From contig AP025283.1 of NCBI GenBank assembly GCA_024347235.1, positions 992,001-1,056,000 of the forward strand: 64,000 nt of DNA, in the 5' to 3' direction. The notes under the pieces were generated by a model. It saw only the letters and a program-made list of their open reading frames with translations, searched no databases and was not told the origin of the DNA. This DNA comes from Aliamphritea spongicola (GTDB lineage Bacteria > Pseudomonadota > Gammaproteobacteria > Pseudomonadales > Balneatricaceae). A program made the translations under genes and the position numbers. The first letter of the stretch is position 1. Every line of letters begins with the position of its first letter. Of this stretch, positions 3,217 to 56,478 are shown piece by piece.

Positions 3217-3324
3217 GTGTATAGCCTATAGTTTTTCTAAAGAGGTGTTTAAAAGGTATCGTTTGTTTATAGCGTTCTTTCTGTTCAGGATACAGCTTAT
3301 TAATAAGTAATTCTAAAGCCGTTC

Positions 3325-29231: not shown

Positions 29232-29570
29232 ATGAAGACGTTACTGATCGCATCACTGACCGGACTGCTGACGTTCTCAGCGATGCAGGTGGCCGCACAT
29301 CCGGGTAATCATCATGGTGTAAGACACTTACCGGCGGGCGCCGTCAGCGTGGTGTTATCCGGGGTTAAATACTGGCTGAAGGATGATGTGTATTACCGTA
29401 AGCACAATAATGTGTATGTCAAAGTTGCTGCGCCGAAGGGGGCAACTCTGGTGCGGGTCCCTAAAGGGGCTGTACTGGTAAAGCATAAAGGTAAGCCTTA
29501 TTACCGCTATAACAACGTGTATTACCGCTGGGTACCGGTGAATAAACGTTATCAGGTCGTGCAAATGTAA
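29232..29570 (+). CDS. Small exported protein, DUF6515-like
   Basis: 112 residues, intact. A signal peptide is clear (MKTLLIASLTGLLTFSAMQVAAHP, cleavage after VAA). The mature part is basic and Tyr-rich with recurring Y-Y-R units (VYYRKHNNVYVKVAAP, PYYRYNNVYYRWVPV), as in periplasmic DUF6515 proteins of unknown function. AGGAGA precedes the ATG by eight bases. It stands alone, with a hairpin downstream. An envelope role is inferred from export. Confidence 0.65.
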   Translation: MKTLLIASLTGLLTFSAMQVAAHPGNHHGVRHLPAGAVSVVLSGVKYWLKDDVYYRKHNNVYVKVAAPKGATLVRVPKGAVLVKHKGKPYYRYNNVYYRWVPVNKRYQVVQM

Positions 29571-29631
29571 TGCTGCTTTGTCGCATAAGACTGCTTATTA
29601 AAGCCGTGGCTAATCCTGACGGAAGATTCAG

Positions 29632-29660
29632 CTAAGTCACCGGATTATCCGGTGGCTTAG
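29632..29660 (+). terminator. Hairpin after small exported protein gene
   Basis: CTAAGTCACCGGA and TCCGGTGGCTTAG form a 13-bp stem with one G-U pair and a two-to-four base loop. The tail is TTAAAA rather than a U tract, so it is a weak terminator. Confidence 0.45.
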
Positions 29661-29699
29661 TTAAAAATGTGCTGCGGCTGTTATCTTTTCTGTTGTAAA

Positions 29700-29719
29700 A
29701 ATAAGGGGTACCCCTTATT
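29700..29719. promoter_or_regulatory. 20-bp perfect palindrome, candidate operator
   Basis: The half-site AATAAGGGGT is followed at once by its exact complement. It lies 203 bases upstream of the exported metallo-hydrolase gene. The rest of 29571-29922 shows no gene. Confidence 0.4.
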
Positions 29720-29922
29720 CTTCTGTTATTTTCCCCATTGCTGTGTTTCAGCCTTCTTTTATTGTTGATAACGATCTGCTTTTTATCAGCAGTTTCGTTT
29801 TGTTGCCGGTTTTAAACCGCATTGCCAGCGCCAGACTGGCAGGATTTTTGCCATGGAGACCGGCCGCTGGTTGTGTGGTCCTGTGCTGGCAGCCTCAATA
29901 AAAATAAATCGGAGGTTTTACA

Positions 29923-30862
29923 ATGAAAAATGGCAAATCGCTTCCACAGGTTGCGTGGCTACCCTGGGGTTTTCCTCGGGATAGCAACGTCTGCAAGCGG
30001 TTCCGGTCTGACGTCCTGGATGTCAGGGAATAATCATAACCGCATTATTCAGGTGCAAAATGAAGGCGGTGTGCAGCAGGATTCCGGTCAGGTAGAAATT
30101 GCCTACTACGCCAACTCCGCGTTCAGAATTACTTCACCCAGAGGTATCAGCGTGATGGTTGATCCGTGGCGTAACGATCCTTCAGGTGCCTGGGGGCTTT
30201 GGTACCGAATGGAGTTTCCTAAGGAAAATGTTGATATCGGTGCCTCAACCCACGCTCACTTTGATCATGATGCGCTGGATAAACTGGACGCGAATATGCT
30301 GCTGGACCGCATGGCCGGTACATTCACGCTGGGTGATATCACGATTCGCGGTATTGCCGATAAGCATCAGTGTGTTGCCCCGGGAATGGTGCCATGGACG
30401 GAAGCGGTGAAACAGTTTGAGGGCCGGGAACAAATTTGTGCACCGACCAACGCCCGGCATATGGATAACACCCTGTTCGTGATTGAAACCGGTGGTATGA
30501 GCTTCCTCATGTGGGGAGATAACCGTCCGGAACCGCCACAGGAAGTGTGGGACCAGATCGGTGAAGTGGATGTGGTCTTCGTGCCTGTGGATGGCTCTGA
30601 ACATATTCTGGATTATGAACAGGCGAATGCTGTGGTAGAGAAAACCGGTGCCAAAGCCGCCATTCCACATCACTATCTTGTGCCTGAAACCACCTTCTAT
30701 ACATCGACGCTGCTACCGGCAGATGAATGGGTTAAGACTCACCCCTTCACTAATGTGGATGCCCCCAGCTTTAACCTGAGTAAGGCTGACCTGGAAGGCA
30801 AGACAGGCCATGTTTATTACTTCGGCTCCAACAATATGGTTACTGCAAAGTCAGCAAACTGA
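29923..30862 (+). CDS. Exported metallo-beta-lactamase-fold hydrolase (UlaG-like)
   Basis: MBL-fold protein of about 310 residues. Metal ligands are in THAHFDHDALD (HxHxDH), later MDNTLFVIETGGMSFLMWGD and IPHHYLVPETTF. Ribosome site GGAGG lies six bases before ATG 29923. In that frame, with one A added, the start reads MKKWQIASTGCVATLGF, a plausible signal peptide; the long ORF beginning at 29930 is therefore misframed at its N-terminus. A second correction near 29975 joins the two. Its substrate is unknown. A HupE/UreJ gene follows after a hairpin. Confidence 0.7.
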
Positions 30863-30924
30863 CCGGTGCCTTATTGACTTAAGGTATCAGGAATTGTTTG
30901 CAGTTTCTTTGTAATTCATATCAT

Positions 30925-30951
30925 CACCGGCAGCCGTGCTGCCGGTGCTTT
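30925..30951 (+). terminator. Terminator or attenuator between MBL and hupE genes
   Basis: Ten-bp stem CACCGGCAGC/GCTGCCGGTG with a three-base loop, followed by CTTTTG. It lies only 15 bases before the next start codon. Confidence 0.65.
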
Positions 30952-30965
30952 TGTGGCGGAAAACT

Positions 30966-32232
30966 ATGAAAATAATAACCCTGCTCAAACAGATTCCGCT
31001 GGTCTGCCTGTTATTGATTATGCTGCCCTGGCAGCAGGCCAGTGCTCACTTTCAGCTGAACATTAATATCCGGGTTGTACACGTTGAGCACACCCGTGAC
31101 GGCATCCGGCTGTATATGCGACTGCCTACGCCTTATCTGCTGGCGGATAAACTCGGTAAAGCCGGTGAAGATGGCTTACCGGAAGCGGCGCCTTACAGCT
31201 ATCACCGAATCGATAATGGTGAGCTGTTCCATTATGTTGATTATGCGCAGCTAGCCGCTGATCCGGCCGGATTAGGCCAGCTGGTTGCTGACGGGCATCA
31301 GTTGTCCGGGCCTGACGGGATATTGCTTGCGCAGGTGGAAGCCGTACGGCTCTATAGCCAGCAGCAACAGCCTCCTTTGCCAGTCTGGACGAAGCCCGGC
31401 TGGCCTTCAGCAAGCCGCAGCAGGCCGTGCCTGAGTCAGAAGTGTATGTCGGGGATACGGTCACGGATGTGCAGTTGTTCTACCCTGCCAGCAGCACCCT
31501 GTATGACTACCGTTTTTCAAGCAGTCTTAATCCCGGACTGGAGAACCAGCTGGAAACTGCAAATCTGATTCTGGATTATTTCCCGGGTGGCACCCAGATT
31601 TTCCGGGCTAAAGGTTTGCTGGAAGAGCCGGTGGTTGTCAGCCGGTCTGCCTGGGCTGCAGCCTGGACATTTATAGTTTCCGGGGTTGAGCACATCGTCA
31701 CCGGGTATGATCACATTCTGTTTGTGGTGTGCCTGATTATTGGTGCAACAGGGACTGCCAGCCTGCTCTGGCGGGTGACCGGCTTTACTCTGGGTCATAG
31801 TGTTACCCTGATTGTTGGTTTCTTTGGCTGGGTACCGGCAGCGGCCTGGTTTATTCCCAGTGTGGAAACCGGTATCGCATTGTCGATTATTTTCGCGGCA
31901 GTGCTGGCTTTGCGACCAGACGATAAACACGGTTCATTTTGGATGACGGCGGCGATCGGTTTGTTGCATGGCCTCGGGTTTTCGTTCCTGCTGCGGGAAT
32001 TTCTGCAGATTGATTCACCGAATCTGTGGCAGAGTTTACTGGCCTTTAACGCGGGGTGGAAGTCGGGCAACTGGGTATTGTACTGCTGCTCTGGCCACTG
32101 GTGTGGTATACCCGTAACTATCAGCCGCAGTTGAATACCCGTATGACCTGGGCGATAGCACTGCCCTGTATTGCCATTGCAGGCATCTGGACCGGTGAAC
32201 GATTGGTACAACTGGCGGATACGCTGATATAG
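30966..32232 (+). CDS. HupE/UreJ family membrane protein
   Basis: About 423 residues after repair. A signal peptide (KIITLLKQIPLVCLLLIMLPWQQASAH) is followed by a periplasmic beta-rich region of about 180 residues, then the HupE/UreJ_2 core: SGVEHIVTGYDHILFVVCLII, TGFTLGHSVTLIVGFFGWVP and AIGLLHGLGFSFLL, whose His and Asp residues are conserved. The family is linked to nickel/cobalt handling in some members. Losses of a T near 31378 (expected PPFASLDEARLAFSKPQQAV) and a G near 32055 (expected AGVEVGQLGIVLLLWPLVWY) break the frame. True stop is 32232. Confidence 0.82.
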
Positions 32233-32257
32233 AAGCAGAAGATCTGAACCCGGATGC

Positions 32258-32286
32258 AAAAACCACCTGCTAAACAGGTGGTTTTT
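32258..32286. terminator. Bidirectional terminator between hupE and mmsA
   Basis: AAAAACCACCTG and CAGGTGGTTTTT form a 12-bp stem with a five-base loop. It serves both converging genes. Confidence 0.85.
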
Positions 32287-32300
32287 ATTCACAGGGTGGA

Positions 32301-33829
32301 TTAACCGGCGACGCAGCTGCGCACGCTGGAATCTTTATTCGCTGCCGCAGGCTGGCCTGCTTTCGGGTCAACCGTACGGATAGTGGCAACCTTGTTCTGG
32401 GTGAAGAAGTCGATCGCGTCTTTACCCTGAACCTTATTATTACCTACCAGTGAACCCTTGATACCGCCAAATGGCAGGTATGGATGCGGTGCACAGACAC
32501 CCACGTTAACACCGATCATGCCCACATCCGCTTCGTTGATGAACTTCTCGGTGTAGTAGCTGTTCTGGGTGAAGATGCAGGCACCGTTGCCCATTTCGTG
32601 ATTGCGGATCATCCGCAGGCCACCGTTGATGCAGCCAACTTTCATGACACTCAGTACCGGGCCGAAGATCTCATCTTTGGCAATCGGCATGCATGGGGTT
32701 ACATCGGTGAATACAGTCGGGCCAACGAAGTAACCGTCCTGGTTAGCTTCCGGCAGTTCCGGGTTACGGCCATCCAGCGCCAGTTTGGCACCGGCTTCAA
32801 TGCCTAGATCGATGTAGTGGTGGATGCGTTCTTTAGCCTTGGCGGAGATTACCGGGCCCATGAATACATCCGGGTTCATGGCGTCGCCAACGGTAACATT
32901 CTTTGATGCTTCCAGCAGGCGCTCAATGAACTCGTCATAGATCTCTTCAACCACGGCAATGTTAGATACCGCCAGACAACGCTGACCGGCAGAACCGTAG
33001 CCGGACATCAGTACGTTTTCGATCAGCAGATCCATTGGCGCATCTTCCATGGCCAGCAGGAAGTTTTCGCACCGCCTAACAGCATGGTTTTCTTGCCGTA
33101 TTTACCGGCACCGGCGGCGATGGATTTTGCCGTTGGGGTAGAGCCTACCAGGCAGATACCGGTGACGTTTTCATCGTCGTACCAGGCTTCTACTGTTTCA
33201 CGGTCACCGTGAACAATGTTTACTACACCCTTCGGCAGACCGGTTTCGATGATCAGGTCCATCATCCGCTGCATGAACAGCGGCGATTCGGTAGACGGTT
33301 TATACACAAAGGTGTTGCCGGTACCGATGGCAAACGGGATAAACCAGCCGAATACCAGTGCCGGGAAGTTGAACGGTGCTACGCCACAGAATACCCCCAG
33401 TGGTGCCTTGATTACCCGGCCGTTGATGTTGTTGGCAATGCCCTGAATGGTTTCGCCCTGCATCAGAGACGGGATGCTGCAGGCCATCTGCAGAATTTCA
33501 ATTACCCGGCCCACTTCACCGCGGGCTTCAGCAATGTGCTTGGCCTGGTCCACAGCGATGGCTTCCGCCAGCATTTCGTGGTTATCCACCATGGCGCGGT
33601 GCATTTTAAAAATGAAGTCCATCCGCTTGGGTAATGGCATAGCACTCCACTCAGGGAAGGCTTCTGCTGCGGCAGCAACCGCCTGACGGGAGGTTTCCGC
33701 AGAAGACAGCGGGACTTCACCGATCACCGCACCGGTGGACGGGTTCTTTAACGGCTCGTACTGTCCATTACTTTCATCCAGCCACTCACCGTTGATGTGG
33801 TTTTTAATTTTGATGTATTGACTGCTCAT
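32301..33829 (-). CDS. mmsA: CoA-acylating methylmalonate-semialdehyde dehydrogenase
   Basis: Aldehyde dehydrogenase-fold enzyme forming propionyl- or acetyl-CoA from (methyl)malonate semialdehyde, about 500 residues. The catalytic Cys is in SGYGSAGQRCLAVSN. Cofactor motif: CGVAPFNFPALVFGWFIPFAIGTGNTFVYKPS. The C-terminus carries YLPFGGIKGSLVGNNKVQGKDAIDFFTQNK. One base is lost near 33065 (GTTTTCG, expected AKNFLLAMEDAPMD). It is the last gene of the ABC importer operon, 65 bases after the second permease. Its presence suggests that the imported amine is degraded via a three-carbon semialdehyde. Confidence 0.92.
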
Positions 33830-33894
33830 TTCTGTATTTCCTGCATGTCTGAAAAACTCTGCCCGGTCCGAAGCATGCCGGGCAGAAAGGTGAA

Positions 33895-34745
33895 TTATGA
33901 AATCTGGCCGGTACGGATCCGTTCACCACGGGCCCGCAGGTATTCAATGGTCAGTAACAGCAGGGCTGATACCACCACCAGTAATACGGCGACCGCCAGA
34001 ATGGTCGGGTTTATTTGCTCCCGCAGGCCGGAGAACATCTGGCGCGGAATGGTGCGCTGTTCAGGGCCGGCGAGGAACAGGATCACTACCACTTCATCGA
34101 AGGAGGTAATGAAGGCAAACAGTGAACCGGAGATCACGCCGGGGCGGATCAGCGGCATAATGACGTTGAAAAAGGTATAGCTGGGGAAGCTCCCATGCCC
34201 AGCGATGCTCTGACCAGTGAGTAGTCAAAGCCGCTCAGGGCTGCGTTGACGGTAATGATCACAAACGGCGTGCCAAGGGCTGCGTGGGCAATGATGACGC
34301 CGAGGTAAGTACCCGCCAGCCCCAGCTGGGTATAGAAGAAGTACATACCCGCCGCGGTGATGATCAGCGGGACGATCATCGGTGACAGCAGAATGGCCAT
34401 AATCATCCGTTGCATTGGCATATCCGCCCGGGACAGACCGATCGCCGCCAGGGTGCCCAGCACGGTGGCGATGACGGTGGAAGCCGCGCCGATCAGGAAA
34501 CTGTTTTTAATGGCCAGAATCCATTTGTCGTCATTAATAATCTCGGCGTACCACTTCATTGAATAGGCATCCGGATCAAATGCCAGCATGCCCTCGGTGA
34601 AGCTGAAGTAAGGCTCGACATTGAACGACAGGGGAATGATCACCAGAATTGGTAACATCAGAAAAGCCAGTACGGCCCAGGCAGTCAGCCGCAGGCTGTG
34701 CATGCCCAGCTTGTGCCAGAAGTTAAAGTATTTAGGAAATTGCAT
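33895..34745 (-). CDS. ABC importer permease 2 (PotC-type)
   Basis: Six-helix inner-membrane permease of about 283 residues for a polyamine-like substrate. The EAA loop for the ATPase contact is ASLGMGAS with the following PFFNVIMPLIRPGVISGSLFAF, broken by losses near 34183. N-terminus MQFPKYFNFWHKLGMHSLRLTAWAVLAFLMLPILVIIPLSF is typical of PotC partners. It starts seven bases after the stop of the duplicated small ORF, so its translation is probably coupled to it. Confidence 0.88.
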
Positions 34746-34751
34746 CGTCAG

Positions 34752-34928
34752 TTACCCCAGTTTGATAATACTTACGCCAACCAGACGGTCGTAGATCCAG
34801 TACAGCAGGGTGATCAGTATCAGCAGGATTGAGCCCAGTGCGGCGGCCAGTTCCCAGCTGTTGGAGGATTGCGACAAGGGAAAAGTGCGATGATGTTCTG
34901 TTTCTTTAAGTGAAATGTTCACAGTCAT
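34752..34928 (-). CDS. 58-residue single-helix protein, duplicated permease C-terminus
   Basis: Not previously recognised as a gene type. ATG 34928 follows TAAGGAG, in which the Shine-Dalgarno overlaps the stop codon of permease 1. The product has a new hydrophilic N-terminus of about 22 residues (MTVNISLKETEHHRTFPLSQ), then SSNSWELAAALGSILLIL continuing to VGVSIIKLG. From SSN onward it repeats the last ~38 residues of permease 1 almost exactly. DNA identity between the copies (34752-34870 and 34934-35050) is roughly 90 percent by eye, with an invariant stretch near the centre. It lies between the two permease genes with tight spacing on both sides. Confidence 0.55.
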   Translation of the reverse strand: MTVNISLKETEHHRTFPLSQSSNSWELAAALGSILLILITLLYWIYDRLVGVSIIKLG

Positions 34929-35050
34929 TCTCCTTATCCAAGCTTGATATTGCTTACGCCAACTAACCGGTCGTAGATCCAGTACAGCAGGGTGATCAGT
35001 ATCAGCAGGATTGAGCCCAGTGCAGCGGCCAGTTCCCAGTTGTTAGAGGA
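34752..35050. repeat. Tandem duplication of permease 1 gene 3' end
   Basis: About 117 bases at 34752-34870 repeat 34934-35050 in the same orientation. The sequence GTCGTAGATCCAGTACAGCA is shared and the identical run continues well beyond it. Mismatches cluster at the stop-proximal end (about eight changes) with four more near the other end. Confidence 0.85.
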
Positions 35051-36229
35051 CTGCATATGAAACGCAATGATATTACTGATCATCTGGCCGTCGGTGCCGC
35101 CGACCAGCGCCGGAGTGATGTAGTAACCAATGGAGATGATGAACACCAGCAGTGCTCCGGCACTCAGGCCTGGCAGGGTCATCGGGAAGTAAATCCGGCA
35201 GAAAGCTGACAGGGGTTTTGCCCCCAGTGACAATGCGGCGCGGAAGTAACTCGGGTCGATGCCTTTCATGACGCTGTACAGGGGCAGGATCATAAAGGGC
35301 AGCAGAATATGGGTCATGGCGATTACCGTTGAGAACTGGGTATAAAGCATCTCAATGGGTTCGCTGATGATGTGCAGGGTCATCAGGAAGTCGTTAACCA
35401 CACCGTTGGTCTGCAGGATGGCGATCCAGGCGGTGGTCCGCACCAGCAGGGATGTCCAGAATGGCAGCAATACAAATACCATCAGGGTATTGGCGACTTT
35501 GGCCGGTGCAGTTGCCAGATAGTAAGCCAGCGGAAAGCCGATGGCGGCGGTCAAAAAGGTGATCAGCAGGGCGATCTTCAGGCTTTTGGCAAACAGCTTG
35601 ATGTAGATGTTGGTATCCCGGGCAACGATCTCCCCTGTTCATTACGGGTCAGATCGGTGGCGGTCAGGTAGAAACTGTCAGTAAACACTTCGCCGGAGGT
35701 TTTCATAGTCCGCCAGATGCGCACATCCTGCCACTGCTTTTTAGCTGCCAGCAGGCGTTCGGCCCCTTCGCTTGCCAGGGTCGCTTCATCCAGCTTCTTC
35801 AGTTTACGGGCGCTGGATTTGATGGTGCTGGAGCTGCCCGGCAAACCACGGTTAATTTCTTCGGCCAGTTTGCCGGAGCGGCGTTCTTTGGCCAGATAAT
35901 GCAGTTCTTTGGCGAAAACATTCAGGGTGGCTGTGTCCGGAATGCTGTTGCCGCTCATCCCATGATTGCAGTTCCTGCAGGGTTTCCGGGATCAGCTGGG
36001 CGACTGTTGGATGGTAAACACTGCGGTACAGCATGGTACCGATTGGTGCGATGAAGGCGATCAGCACAAAGACAATCAGCGGAACGACGAAGGCGGTGGC
36101 GATCAGTTTCCGGCGGCGCTGGTTGCGCTTGCTCTGGCGCATTTCCTCCGGGGTCAGCCCGGAATGCACGTTGCGGTCTTCTTCAAACGAAGCGGCGCTG
36201 TGTGCGGCGGTTAATTCAGCTTGAGACAT
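34934..36229 (-). CDS. ABC importer permease 1 (PotB-type)
   Basis: Inner-membrane permease of about 430 residues, longer than PotB because of an N-terminal cytoplasmic tail and a large extracytoplasmic insertion after the first helix (about residues 75-195, with KSSARKLKKLDEATLASEGAERLLAAKKQW). The core has FPLAYYLATAPAKVANTLMVFVLLPFWTSLLVRTTAW and the EAA loop AALSLGAKPLSAFCRIYFPMTLPGL. Frame changes near 35950 (GGG in CATGGGATG) and 35633 (CAGGGGAG, expected NEQGEIVARDTNIYIK). Start ATG 36229. The protein ends VGVSNIKLG; the last helix is duplicated downstream. Confidence 0.88.
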
Positions 36230-36300
36230 AGAACAGCCCTTTCTTATTGTTATAAGGGCACTCCGCGGAGTGCCCTGCATGCACAGTGTCAGCTATTGGC

Positions 36301-37355
36301 TCAGTTCAGCAGCCATTCGTTGAATTTCTCACCCAGGGACTCGCCGTAGTCAGCCCAGAATTCACCGGAGGCTTTCAGGCCTTCATCCAGGTGGGCGGAT
36401 GGCAGTTTCGGCAGAATGGCGTCATCCATGTAAGCGTATGCAGACTTACGGGTCGGGCCGTATGCCACGTCCTGCATGCCACTTTCCGGCTTGGAGCCGG
36501 TGGCGAAACGAATGAACTCTTCAGCCACTGCTTTTTCTTGGAGCCGCGGACGATGGCCCATACGTCCAGGTCATAAACGTGAGCATCCCAGACCATTTCG
36601 AATGGCTTGTTGTCCTTCTGAATCGCATCGAAGATCCGGCCGTTAGCCGACTGTGCCATGATGGCTCCGCCGTCGTTCAGAAGTTGTGGTACCTGTGACC
36701 AGCTGTCGAACCACACCAGATCGTTCTTGATGGTGTCCAGTTTGGCGAATGCCCGGGCCTGACCTTCGTCGGTGGACAGTACATCGTAGACTTCATCCTT
36801 CGGTACACCGTCGGCAATCAGGGCCCATTCAAGGTTTACCTGCGGGCGTTTACGCAGGGCGCGCTTACCCGGGAATTGCTGGGTGTTGAAGAAATCATTG
36901 ATAGAGTTCGGATTGCCGCCTTTGATGGTGTCCTGATTGTAGGCATACAGGATGGTCCAGATGATGTTACCTACACCGCATTCGTTGGCCAGTGCCTGTG
37001 GAATGAAGTCGTCTTTCGCAGCGACACCGTCGTCACCCGGTGGCAGGGTATCGTGTGGGAATACTTCCAGCAGGCCTTCAGAACAGGCCCGTTCCAGATC
37101 GATTACTTCCACATCGACCACATCCCATAGGATGTTGCCACTTTCAACCTGCGCCTTCAGTTCGGCGATACCGCCGGAATAGTTTTCAAACAGAATTTTA
37201 TGGCCGGTTTTCTCCATGAAGGGATCCAGCATGTGTTTTTGCTGGGCCGCACCATACGCGCCGCCGAAGGAGACGGCAGTAAACTGCTCAGCCATCGCCG
37301 GTGACATTGCCGTACATAGCGCCAGAGCAGCGCCGAATCGTTTGAGATGTTTCAT
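36301..37355 (-). CDS. Periplasmic polyamine-type substrate-binding protein
   Basis: About 350 residues with signal peptide MKHLKRFGAALALCTAMSPAMA. Motifs VSFGGAYGAAQQKHMLDPFMEKTG, WDVVDVEVIDLERACSEGLLE and VGNIIWTILYAYNQDT fit PotD-like binding proteins of the polyamine/opine/GABA group. One A is missing in AAGAAAAAGCAG near 36537 (expected SKKKAVAEEFIRFATGSKPES). Start follows GAGGAAAAATAATA. Substrate specificity is not decided by sequence. Confidence 0.9.
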
Positions 37356-37402
37356 TATTATTTTTCCTCTTACGTGTTTACGGGTATTGCTGTGTTTGAA
37401 CG

Positions 37403-38518
37403 TTAACTGGCGCGGGCCAGTGCCAGGCCGCCATTGCCTGCCCAGGTCAACTGCACAGTACTGCCGGTGGCAATGTGCGGGGCATCCTGATCATTGAGGG
37501 TTTTCACCATGATTTCGGAGCCGTCACTGAGGCGGAAGAAGTAACGGATGGAGTCACCCACGTAGAGCCGGGTAATGAAGCTGGCATTCACGCAGTTATC
37601 CAGTACCTGACCGTCTTTGGCGATGAACAGGTTCTCCGGACGGATGGTGACCACGCATTCTTCGCCGGCACTCGGACAGTTCGGGTTTTCGGTGGTGGTG
37701 AGGGTACCGTCGGCCAGACGGATTTCGGCTTTGCCTGCATCAACACGGGTTACGGTGCCCGGAATATGGTTGTTCTCGCCGATAAAGTCCGCCACAAAGG
37801 CACAGCTTGGCTGTTCATAAAGTACATCCGGGGCGGCACATTGCTTCACCACACCATCATCGAACACGGCGATACGGTCTGACATGGTCAGGGCTTCAGT
37901 CTGGTCGTGGGTGACGTAGATGGCAGTGAACCCCAGATCTTCGTGCAGGCGCTTAATTTCGAACTGCATCTGCTCACGGAGATTTTTATCCAGTGCACCC
38001 AGCGGTTCGTCCATCAGGACAATGCTTGGCTCAAAGATCAGTGAGCGGGCCAGTGCCACCCGCTGTTTCTGGCCACCGGATAGCTGGCCCGGATAGCGTT
38101 TACCGAAGTCTGCCAGTTCCACCAGTGCCAGCGCCTCTTTCACCCGGCGGTCTACCTCTGCGGCTGCAACCTTGCGAACCTTCAGCGGGTACGCCAGGTT
38201 CTCACTGATGGTCATATGCGGAAACAGCGCGTAGGTCTGGAACACCATGCCGATGTTACGGTGGTAGGGGCGATGTCGTTGACCGGGTTGCCGGCAATGA
38301 GAATCTCGCCGCTGGTAACATCTTCGAAGCCTGCCAGCATCATCAGGCAGGTGGTTTTGCCCGAGCCGGAAGGCCCCAGCAGCGTGACGAACTCACCCTT
38401 TTGATATCCAGATTAAAATTTTTAACCACCAGGTTTTGCTGATCGTAACTTTTTTGACGTTTACGAAGCGCACGTACTGGTCGTCGGATGTTGCGTGTGT
38501 GGCGGTTGTAACAGACAT
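37403..38518 (-). CDS. ABC importer ATPase (PotA-type)
   Basis: Nucleotide-binding subunit of about 373 residues and first gene of the operon. Walker A is [13 protein letters not shown], signature [15 protein letters not shown], Walker [12 protein letters not shown] and switch His in [11 protein letters not shown]-terminal TOBE domain is present ([15 protein letters not shown]). Three losses break its N-terminal third: A runs near 38450 and 38402 and CCCC near 38270. Repaired text reads [24 protein letters not shown] and [19 protein letters not shown]. It is separated from a MocR regulator gene by 290 bases. Confidence 0.92.
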
Positions 38519-38808
38519 GGTGATTACTCTTTTATTATGGTCACGGTGTCGTTTTGTGCGCTGTTTTACTTGGAAACAGCCGCTTTTATGTGCCTTTTCA
38601 GGCAGGATTTACTATAGGAGAGAGGGCTTTTCGGGCTATAGACCCAACGCTGAACCGAAATGTAGTTCCAGGCTGTGAGCCAGGATTGGCGTGCTTTACA
38701 GCGAATCTGAATAAAACTAATAAGGGGTAGAAGAGGGAAAATCAGCGGGTTTGGTACCAGCAGGCTTCCAGCAGGCAGCCTGCCGGTACCAGACTTGTTA
38801 GTAAGTCA
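38519..38808. other. Intergenic region between MocR gene and ABC operon
   Basis: About 290 bases; presumed promoter of the ABC importer operon on the minus strand. It contains a 14-bp inverted repeat GGTACCAGCAGGCT/AGCCTGCCGGTACC (38753-38766, 38777-38790, one mismatch) just beyond the MocR gene stop, with no U tract. No ORF was recognised. Confidence 0.4.
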
Positions 38809-40287
38809 TTACTCCCCGAGCTGATGGATGATAGCTGCCAGCCGGTCAATGCCGGGGCGGATCCGCTCGGTGGCAATGGATGAATACCCCAGCCGGAAAT
38901 AATTCAGTGGCGGGTTTTCGGCGTAGTAGTAAATATCACCGGATTCAATGACCACCCCTTTTTGCAGGGCCAGCCGTTTCAGTTCCCGGGCATCCAAATG
39001 ATCCGGGCCCTTAACCCAGTAGGCCGAGCCGCCGAACACTGGTGGAATTGCTGATTCCGGCAGGCAGTCCTGCAGGGCATCCCCTACCGCCTGCCAGCGG
39101 GCTTCATAGGCCTGAATCAGGTTGCGAACCAGTGAGTCGTGATAACCACGGGCCAGAAACAGCCCGATGGAGCGCTGGTTATTCATGGGCGGGTGGCGCA
39201 GCATCATACGGCGGAATTCCCGGATTTCCCGGATCAGCTCTTTTGGCCCCACGATGTAACCGACCCGCAACCCCGGCGACAGAGTTTTGGACAGGCTGCC
39301 CAGGTAGATCACCCGGTCGTTCTTATCCAGGCTTTTCAGTGCCGGGGTGGGGGTATCCGCAAAGGTAACTTCGCATTCGTAGTCATCTTCGATGATCAGG
39401 AAGTCATCCCGTGAGGCCTGTTCCAGTAACTGTCGCCGCCGTTCCAGCGGCATGGTGACTGTGGTCGGGAACTGGTGGCTGGGGGTGGTGAACAGCAGGT
39501 TACAGTCACTCAGCTGTTCGCCGACGATCAGGCCGTCACCGTCCACCGCCAGGGGCTTTATACGGGCTTCAGTACTGGCGGCCATCTTGGTGAGATCCGG
39601 ATAACCCGGTTCTTCAAGGCCAAAGCAGGCGTCACGGTTGAGCAGCAGCCGCAGGATCATGTAAAGGGCATGCTGGGCACCCACGGTAATGAGAATTTCT
39701 TCCGGATCAGCCCAGACCCCGCGACGGGGTAGCAGGCGTGAGTGAATCTGTTCGATGAGCAACGGATCATCTTCATCATACCGGTCACCGGACCAGTCAC
39801 TGATAGCCTGTACCGAAACTGATTCCCGGCAGCATTCCCGCCAGTGGTTGGTGGGAAACATTTTCGGATCCAGCTGGCCGTAGATAAACGGGTAGGGATA
39901 ATCCTGCCAGCGGTTGACCTTGTTGAGCTTGTGCTCGGTAGGGCGAAATTTCAGAAAGTTCTGCCATTGCGGCGGGTTGCCCTGAATTTCTTCGTTGTCG
40001 CTTTGCGGGTTGCCGTTACCGTTGACACTGGCGCGGAGAATTTCTTCGTTGACGTAAAACCCGGCCCGTTCCCGGGAGATCAGGTAGCCGTCATCGATCA
40101 GGTGCTCATAGGCCAGAATGACGGTGTTACGGGAAACATGGAGCATTTCTGCCAGTTTACGGGTTGAGGGCAGGGGCACATTACTGGGGATGTGGCCGTC
40201 CATAATGGCGGTACTGATCTGCTCCCGGATCTGCTGCTGCAAGCTGGCATCGCTGTCCGGCGATAAGTGAAACAAGTGGTTCAGCAT
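38809..40287 (-). CDS. MocR-family PLP-dependent transcriptional regulator
   Basis: Intact 492-residue fusion of a GntR winged helix (about residues 12-80, PLPSTRKLAEMLHVSRNTVILAYEHLIDDGYLISRERAGFYV) and an aminotransferase-fold domain. The PLP lysine is in YLGSLSKTLSPGLRVGYI and the phosphate loop in ITVGAQHALYMILRLL. MocR proteins sense amines through PLP. Same strand as and just upstream of the ABC-mmsA operon, it is the likely regulator of that pathway, by context only. Confidence 0.9.
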   Translation of the reverse strand: MLNHLFHLSPDSDASLQQQIREQISTAIMDGHIPSNVPLPSTRKLAEMLHVSRNTVILAYEHLIDDGYLISRERAGFYVNEEILRASVNGNGNPQSDNEEIQGNPPQWQNFLKFRPTEHKLNKVNRWQDYPYPFIYGQLDPKMFPTNHWRECCRESVSVQAISDWSGDRYDEDDPLLIEQIHSRLLPRRGVWADPEEILITVGAQHALYMILRLLLNRDACFGLEEPGYPDLTKMAASTEARIKPLAVDGDGLIVGEQLSDCNLLFTTPSHQFPTTVTMPLERRRQLLEQASRDDFLIIEDDYECEVTFADTPTPALKSLDKNDRVIYLGSLSKTLSPGLRVGYIVGPKELIREIREFRRMMLRHPPMNNQRSIGLFLARGYHDSLVRNLIQAYEARWQAVGDALQDCLPESAIPPVFGGSAYWVKGPDHLDARELKRLALQKGVVIESGDIYYYAENPPLNYFRLGYSSIATERIRPGIDRLAAIIHQLGE

Positions 40288-45118: not shown

Positions 45119-45583
45119 TTGAGCATGGTTACAACTGAATGGCGCTGGCAGACATTCACGCAGTTAAGTAATACCGAGTTGTATGAAATTCTGGCGCTAC
45201 GTCAGCAGGTTTTTGTATTGGAGCAAACCTGCCTTTATGCGGATATGGATCATAAGGATCAGCAGTGCCATCACCTCAGTGGCTGGTGTGAAGGTAAGCT
45301 GCAGGGGTATTTGCGGGTGGTACCACCGGGGCTGGTTTATCCGGAGGTTGCGCTGGGTCGTATTCTGACCGCTGAATCTGCCCGGGGTAGCGGGCTGGGC
45401 AGGCAGTTGGTCAGCCGGGCGCTGGATGAAGTGTCTTTACTGTATCCCGGACAGTCGGTGCGGATTTCTGCACAGCTGTATCTGGAACGTTTTTATGCCG
45501 GTTTTGGTTTCAGGACGGTGTCTGATCCCTACGATGAAGATGGCATTCCTCATATTGAAATGTTGTTGCAGTCCCCTGAATAA
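45119..45583 (+). CDS. elaA: ElaA-type GNAT acetyltransferase
   Basis: Intact, about 154 residues. Typical ElaA text: ILALRQQVFVLEQTCLYADMDHKDQQCHHLSGW, then acetyl-CoA loop ARGSGLGRQLVSRAL and AQLYLERFYAGFGFRTVSDPYDEDGIPHIEM. TTG 45119 is five bases after GGGAGG; ATG 45125 is the alternative. Substrate unknown. Confidence 0.85.
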   Translation: MSMVTTEWRWQTFTQLSNTELYEILALRQQVFVLEQTCLYADMDHKDQQCHHLSGWCEGKLQGYLRVVPPGLVYPEVALGRILTAESARGSGLGRQLVSRALDEVSLLYPGQSVRISAQLYLERFYAGFGFRTVSDPYDEDGIPHIEMLLQSPE

Positions 45584-45619
45584 GGCTGCCCGACAGTCGT
45601 TAACAAGTTTGGTTTGTTT

Positions 45620-45663
45620 ATTTACGACGCTTTTGTATTTACGACCTCTTGTTCATTTACGAC
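45620..45663. repeat. Triple ATTTACGAC direct repeat
   Basis: ATTTACGAC occurs at 45620-45628, 45637-45645 and 45655-45663, spaced 17 and 18 bases, each preceded by a TTGT-like element. It lies 108 bases upstream of the dioxygenase start; likely operator sites. Confidence 0.65.
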
Positions 45664-55379: not shown

Positions 55380-55562
55380 AATAAAAAATCTGCTAAGAAA
55401 CTGAGCCCGGCAGCATTTTATCAGGGGATGTTAAGACGGGTACTTAAAAGCGAGCTTACCGGCCGGGATTTTTGATATGACGATATGCAAAGTAGTCCCT
55501 GTTTTCACAGAGCGCTTCAGGAGTGCACCTTGTCTCTCAGATAAGCACAGGTGCAGGTTTTA

Positions 55563-55997
55563 TCAGCGTTCGAAGAACATTGCTGGCCGGAGTCCAAACC
55601 GTGCAGATAGCTTCTCGATAGCCTGACGGCTGAGCACCCGCTTACCATTCAATACTTTGGAAACCATTGTCTTATCGCCGATTTCCGGCAGGTCGCTGCC
55701 TGTCAGGTTGTACTGACTCATTAAAGTACGGAGCAGGGCAATATCTGCGGGTATCGCTTCAGCTTCTTCAATAAAAGCGGTGAGTTCATCATCCTTTGCT
55801 TCGTATTGCTCAATAGCGTGGCTGATCATATCGATCAGGGGATTCATAGAATCGTCCGGGGTATCAGCAGCGGTCTCCATTATTTGTTCCAGAGTTTCCA
55901 GTGCTGCTTCGTACTGTTCGTCTGAATCAATGTTAATGAAAGGATGGGCTGTAGCCATAAATTGCTGGTATGCATCTACAATTGCTAACTGTGCCAT
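55563..55997 (-). CDS. higA: HigA-type antitoxin
   Basis: Intact, 144 residues. N-terminal helical region, then a C-terminal XRE helix-turn-helix (LTGSDLPEIGDKTMVSKVLNGKRVLSRQAIEKLSARFGLRPAMFF), the layout of HigA antitoxins paired with toxin-first operons. It starts 10 bases after the toxin gene stop. It should neutralise the toxin and repress the promoter. Confidence 0.85.
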   Translation of the reverse strand: MAQLAIVDAYQQFMATAHPFINIDSDEQYEAALETLEQIMETAADTPDDSMNPLIDMISHAIEQYEAKDDELTAFIEEAEAIPADIALLRTLMSQYNLTGSDLPEIGDKTMVSKVLNGKRVLSRQAIEKLSARFGLRPAMFFER

Positions 55998-56007
55998 AAC
56001 ATTGCCT

Positions 56008-56318
56008 TTAATCTTTTTCTTTCATGTATTTCCGGGTTAGCTTGTCATAGTCCGCATGATTCACGATATGTTTGATATACATGCGTTTATTCACAAACTG
56101 GATAAATGCAACTACCCGCAGGTTGTTGCCTCCCACATCTAATACCCACCATTTATCTTTATATTTAAAGTTGTCTAATGACGGGAAAACAGCTTTCAGT
56201 TCTTCAGGGCTGTGGAAATCCGTTTTATGCAGCACTCTGAACATTTCCAGTAATGCTGCCCGGTCATTTGGGTATTTCTTTGCAGCATCATTGAAAGGCT
56301 TTTGGAGATAACATTCAT
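56008..56318 (-). CDS. higB: HigB-type mRNA interferase toxin
   Basis: About 104 residues. The core AAKKYPNDRAALLEMFRVLHKTDFHSPEELKAVFPSLDNFKYKDKWWVLDVGGNNLRVVAFIQFVNKRMYIKHIVNHADYDKL is the HigB fold with Arg and His ribonuclease residues. With one A restored in CCAAAAGCC near 56297, ATG 56318 gives MNVISKKPFND, the family start, and AAGGAACGACTC precedes it. The longer frame start at 56346 is not needed. Toxin-first order with HigA downstream. Confidence 0.85.
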
Positions 56319-56330
56319 GAGTCGTTCCTT

Positions 56331-56375
56331 GTTGACTATATGTCAACTGTGAACTCTGGTTGACTTATTGTCAAC
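56331..56375. promoter_or_regulatory. Paired GTTGAC-N5-GTCAAC operators of higBA
   Basis: Two 17-bp inverted repeats, GTTGAC-TATAT-GTCAAC (56331-56347) and GTTGAC-TTATT-GTCAAC (56359-56375), 28 bp centre to centre, directly before higB. Likely HigA/HigBA autorepression sites. Confidence 0.75.
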
Positions 56376-56478
56376 TTTTGTCTTTCTACTTGCTATAACC
56401 AGCGGGGAACTAATAGAGGTGAGGGCCTGTTTAGCCCGGCGTATTTGCCGGGCTTTTAGCAGGAGGGAGATAGCTGCT

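Follow-up and report, generated by a model that had tools for sequence, protein, structure and literature searches.

How did a polyamine-type transporter operon come to carry the end of one of its permease genes twice, and is the small open reading frame (ORF) that spans the second copy a gene or a by-product of its formation? The question arises in a 64,000-nucleotide stretch of the genome of the marine bacterium Aliamphritea spongicola (contig AP025283.1, positions 992,001–1,056,000; hereafter the window), where a minus-strand run of genes encodes a MocR-like regulator (38809–40287), an ABC ATPase, a solute-binding protein, permease 1, permease 2 and an aldehyde dehydrogenase. We take this run to be an operon. 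For the two permeases the highest-scoring models are PotH/PotB and PotC; because the scores fall below the model cut-offs, 'polyamine-type' ABC importer is as far as the name goes. Permease 1 was recovered in this genome as three pieces, with identities of 89–99%. At the 3' end of permease 2, a 300-base bin (33800–34099) is 98.7, 93.0 and 96.7% identical to the relatives G001, G002 and G012, respectively; these values are well above those of the neighbouring bins and are raised against all three genomes.

The 3' end of permease 1 (copy A) recurs as a second copy (copy B) over 121 nt without a gap (Table 1). The copies are identical at 109 of 121 positions (90.1%), their starts lie 182 nt apart and the pair is the only same-strand repeat in the window with starts at most 3 kb apart at an E value threshold of 1e-8. 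With an E value of 6.7e-41 the match is far beyond chance. An initial annotation, made by eye, had described a repeat of about 117 bases with roughly 90% identity and about 12 base changes, several of them in the last codons; this description holds, as the 12 differences comprise four in the first 31 nt in the coding direction, none in the next 56 and eight in the last 34. Together with a 61-nt spacer, copy B forms a 182-bp insert (34752–34933) between the two permease genes, which in this assembly has the form of a partial tandem duplication: one end of a gene stands next to it a second time, and the relatives examined lack this repeat.

Table 1. Features at the junction between the two permease genes (window coordinates).
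Feature	Coordinates	Strand	Basis
Permease 2, PotC-like; frame interrupted near 34182 as assembled	33895–34745	-	ORF list, indels, profile match
Copy B, the repeated permease-1 3' end, running directly into the ancestral 6-nt junction with permease 2	34752–34872	-	Repeat search, 90% over 121 nt; last three codons, stop and junction as in G001, G012 and G002
ORF of 58 codons (58 aa), ATG start, in-frame GTG at codon 3; unproven as a gene	34752–34928	-	ORF list
Spacer, 61 nt: roughly 33 nt that match no source, followed by some 27 nt with weak similarity to permease 1 (sequence just upstream of the tail, 5-nt net indel)	34873–34933	-	BLASTN and alignments
Copy A, permease 1's own 3' end, 40 codons including the stop	34934–35054	-	Repeat; five derived changes, all synonymous
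Permease 1, PotB/PotH-like; frame interrupted near 35636 and 35956 as assembled	34934–36229	-	G001 orthologue (432 aa) matches the PotH and PotB models below cut-off

In the three nearest relatives (G001, G002 and G012), permease 1 has a single tail and is joined to permease 2 by 6 nt (CTGACG) with no insert, which supports the earlier reading of a duplication at this junction. A TBLASTN search found no second tail in 99 relative loci (19 plus 80 kept from at least 204 relatives; 96 after three exact duplicates are dropped); applied to the window itself, it gives one. In the family, a DNA search matched 19 of 116 genomes including this one, and the 18 others match in one place each, with no second copy. 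The corresponding protein search matched the peptide in 64 of the 116; in the 63 matching genomes among the 115 others, the match always lies within a frame of 160–473 residues. Ten of these 63 have two or three peptide matches, on different contigs or, in one genome, 580 kb apart. Every match listed starts at ORF residue 18, 19, 20 or 24, and residues 1–17 have no match in the 115 other family genomes. Looking for the small ORF between potB- and potC-like genes elsewhere, as had been proposed, thus yielded no second tail in the 99 loci and no free-standing copy in the 115 family genomes. The repeat is present in the assembly and, among the genomes examined, is found in this genome only. The same junction shows other arrangements elsewhere: five loci (L007, L028, L030, L121 and L122, two of them named Marinobacterium) have 53 nt behind the permease-1 stop, with a 14-codon mini-ORF that reads by eye in three versions (MKPSRILSARQYGE and near variants), and Amphritea balenae (L010/L026) has a different spacer with a 19-codon ORF.

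The reading frame of the insert has to be judged against the quality of the assembly. Compared with G001, to which its aligned blocks are 86–91% identical, the window lacks a single base at 96 places and carries an extra one at 18, counted over 60,100 aligned columns. Runs of three bases or more cover 16% of window positions and hold 50 of the 96 deletions, 34 of them where the run is five to seven bases long; for the remaining 46, the aligner chose runs no longer than two bases. One account of uncorrected nanopore errors describes them as mostly homopolymer indels that shift reading frames (PMC8011154). Judged by its indels, the assembly looks like unpolished long reads with residual error mainly in homopolymers, and for this reason the apparent pseudogenes and new small ORFs of the window should be distrusted. 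A completeness of 78.5% (contamination 4.9%) fits such residual error; 15 of 16 other genomes of the genus reach 93–100%, and one 75%. Gaps of one or two bases, most of them deletions, disrupt genes in the window, for example at 33068 (the dehydrogenase), 34182, 35636, 35956, 36535, 38267 and 38403. Frame-shifting indels amount to at most about 2.4 per kb, an upper bound from 145 events of 1, 2 or 4 bases, some of them real, and at that rate about 0.4 errors are expected in a frame of 177 nt. Because of this expectation, and because both flanking permease genes are broken, the frame of the ORF is not established and cannot be trusted in this assembly as read. The substitutions between copies A and B are less suspect than the frame.

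False duplication is a separate concern. A search for local direct repeats (at least 60 bases, within 1.5 kb) gave 24 pairs here, in 864 kb that include the window, and 29 in 876 kb of G001; both are samples of about 17% of the genome, searched stretch by stretch and compared as totals rather than pair by pair. Within that sample no general excess over G001 was seen, so the assembly is not full of false duplications. Three other stretches of the window also differ from relatives. At 29536–32301, about 2.7 kb (81% in G002) stand where G001 and G012 have about 100 bp; 45583–45650 holds short TTTACGAC-type repeats and needs insertions of 19, 16 and 11 bases to align with G001; and at 55472–56475 about 1 kb lies between blocks that match G001, which has about 20 bp at the same place.

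The ORF itself begins 5 nt after the permease-1 stop and ends 6 nt before the permease-2 ATG, and the tight spacing to both neighbours that the initial annotation described was therefore measured as such. It had also assigned the ORF its own Shine–Dalgarno sequence, overlapping the permease-1 stop, together with the ATG; an AAGGAG motif does overlap the stop, but it lies only 1 nt from the ATG and 7 nt from the in-frame GTG, which is the better placed of the two. If anything is made from the ORF, a 56-residue product from the GTG is likelier than the 58-residue one for this reason. The hydrophobic stretch covers residues 27–45, with a mean Kyte–Doolittle value of 2.4. The product matches no Pfam or NCBIfam family at an E value of 0.001, PF00528 (BPD_transp_1) included, unlike a permease-1 piece that matches PF00528 at 1.3e-13. 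Forty of its codons come from the permease frame and the first 17–18 from the spacer; that these new codons are open is unremarkable, with an estimated chance of about 0.4. A reading as an RNA element was dropped, since no Rfam family reached its gathering score within 30000–40000 and the folding energy is ordinary (z = 0.61).

How old is the second copy? Over the 121 nt, A and B differ at 12 positions, A and G001 at 10, A and G012 at 10, B and G001 at 12, B and G012 at 10, and G001 and G012 at 6. By these counts, A and B are as divergent as alleles from sister species. Of the 'recent duplication' suggested earlier, the duplication stands; its recency is not clear, as A and B differ by 12/121, much as either copy does from the two closest relatives (10–12/121). 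Two changes (TCC and GTT) are shared by A and B and missing from G001, G012 and G002, and A and B group together in the tree with weak support (69); a tree constrained to join them is the same as that of the free search. Copy B retains the last three codons and the junction of the relatives; copy A does not. Against an ancestor inferred by eye from A, B and the relatives' rows, copy A has five base changes and no residue change, and copy B has seven base changes, of which two alter the protein (N to S, N to I), each replacing an asparagine retained in A, G001, G012 and G002. One of the seven could belong to A, which would leave six. In a neutral simulation, two or fewer residue changes without a stop occurred in 2.4–3.8% of trials with seven changes and in 6.7–9.0% with six.

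This synonymous bias is the best evidence for the idea that the frame was kept by selection despite the base changes. The bias itself was borne out, if weakly (seven base and two residue changes, P 0.02–0.09); selection does not follow from it, as non-functional explanations fit equally. The same bias is equally expected from two working permease alleles that were later joined, or from gene conversion from A, with which the 56 identical bases in the middle of the two copies may be cited. For an imported allele, no break in identity at the junction was consistent against three relatives, and no donor was found.

The spacer supplies the new N-terminus of the ORF. In its own genome it matches only its own place and four 14-base chance matches, and a sample of 389 further genomes from the order gave no match. 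A mobile or phage source was rejected: copy and spacer had no match to plasmid records at an E value of 1e-5, and no viral contig contained an exact match to a 25-base piece. A paralogue elsewhere in this genome was likewise rejected as the source, the matches other than permease-1 pieces and copy B being only 22–40% identical. The first 33 or so bases found no source in any of these searches (own genome, plasmid records, viral contigs and 389 genomes of the order). For the remainder, BLASTN matches in two relatives (G020 and G072) extend beyond the 121-nt block to query base 146 and are there a net 5 bases shorter, and the spacer sequence CAGAACATCATCGC aligns opposite CAGTAACATTATCGC of G001 permease 1. 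When compared with shuffled spacers, the unanchored alignment score gave P values of 0.019 for G001, 0.29 for the window's own permease, 0.30 for G012 and 0.96 for G002; aligned from the right-hand end, the corresponding values were 0.036, 0.135, 0.13 and 0.32. When the last 35 spacer bases were anchored at 3252 positions of the G001 locus, five of the eight best positions were no more than 9 bases away from where homology predicts, although the exact expected position scored lower. From such alignments, about 27 nt of the spacer are likely to be homologous to permease-1 sequence, although the case is not strong. On that assumption, the ORF would read a permease-like stretch one frame off; the frame that yields KKQNIIALF (compare NIIAF in the permease) is different from that of the ORF.

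We consider it probable that the insert is a non-conserved recombination or duplication scar that carries an incidental ORF. Its presumed origin is a recombination event, illegitimate or homeologous, where permease 1 ends, and two routes are conceivable. A diverged allele may have replaced permease 1 with its incoming end misaligned, so that the old tail was left behind. Alternatively, the tail may have been duplicated in tandem and then held alike by gene conversion. The shared TCC and GTT changes and the weakly supported grouping of A with B favour a duplication within the lineage over an imported allele. In either case the 40 codons of the permease frame would come free and the first 17–18 would be spacer, partly permease sequence in the wrong frame. 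The ORF probably has no function of its own, although ribosomes already at the site may happen to translate it into a short helix. A scar accords with the lack of a second tail in the relatives examined and of spacer matches in the genomes sampled from the order, with the relatives' last three codons and junction being present in B and not in A, with derived changes that are all synonymous in A and mostly so in B, with an A–B distance like that between sister species and with a spacer that, beside B, aligns to permease sequence only with a frameshifting 5-nt difference. Against it, copy B is open over 40 codons with only two residue changes among seven base changes (P 0.024–0.09), a result that selection on a small gene would also give, no consistent identity break was seen at the junction against three relatives, no donor was found and the spacer homology is weak.

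That the insert is instead a functional mini-gene, as originally proposed (a separate gene for an accessory subunit or decoy helix under selection), is unlikely. Such a gene would encode a translationally coupled accessory or regulatory subunit, a single-helix protein of 56–58 residues that takes the position of permease 1's last helix or packs beside it. The close spacing with AAGGAG ahead of GTG/ATG, the retained hydrophobic helix, the few residue changes and a distance that makes the copies as old as the species split all suit it, yet it does not recur in the relatives examined, its N-terminal part is unmatched in the family and in 389 genomes of the order, its frame is unreliable here and both of its residue changes hit asparagines that are constant in A and the three nearest relatives. 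We find it quite improbable, in particular, that the duplicated helix is a lineage-specific coupled subunit that pairs or competes with its parent's last helix and has been under purifying selection since about the species split. An assembly artefact, in which two diverged haplotypes of a mixed sample or a badly resolved bubble were written in series, is likewise unlikely: the completeness, contamination and many one-base deletions would allow it, and A and B do differ like sister-species alleles, but such events should be frequent and local repeats are not in excess over G001 (totals only), a 182-bp insert should be spanned by long reads and about 33 nt of the spacer match neither gene. Very unlikely is a very recent neutral tandem duplication of the tail within the strain. 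The two changes shared by A and B and their grouping in the tree point to it; however, 12 differences in 121 nt are as many as separate sister species, and neutral decay does not readily give the synonymous bias.

Partial (3'-end) tandem gene duplications and gene-fragment scars occur in bacterial genomes, and the scar proposed here resembles them in its adjacent second copy of a gene end, its lack of conservation and its flanking filler sequence. It differs in that the copy is open from an ATG or GTG just behind the parent's stop and shows a synonymous bias. The copied segment is the end of a PotB/PotH-type polyamine permease (BPD_transp_1, PF00528; NCBIfam PotH NF007963 and PotB NF007044), but copy B holds the last helix only and matches no Pfam or NCBIfam model. 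KdpF and AcrZ are small single-helix proteins that bind transporters, are conserved and have been shown experimentally. The ORF shares with them its size, a lone hydrophobic helix and a place within or close to an operon for a transporter; unlike them, it is neither conserved nor experimentally shown. As it stands, a scar in one genome, seen in an error-prone assembly, has little significance. Were the product of the ORF shown to be made and needed, however, the locus would clearly capture, at an early point, how a small membrane subunit arises out of the last helix of the protein encoded next to it, the parent gene still adjacent to its offspring.
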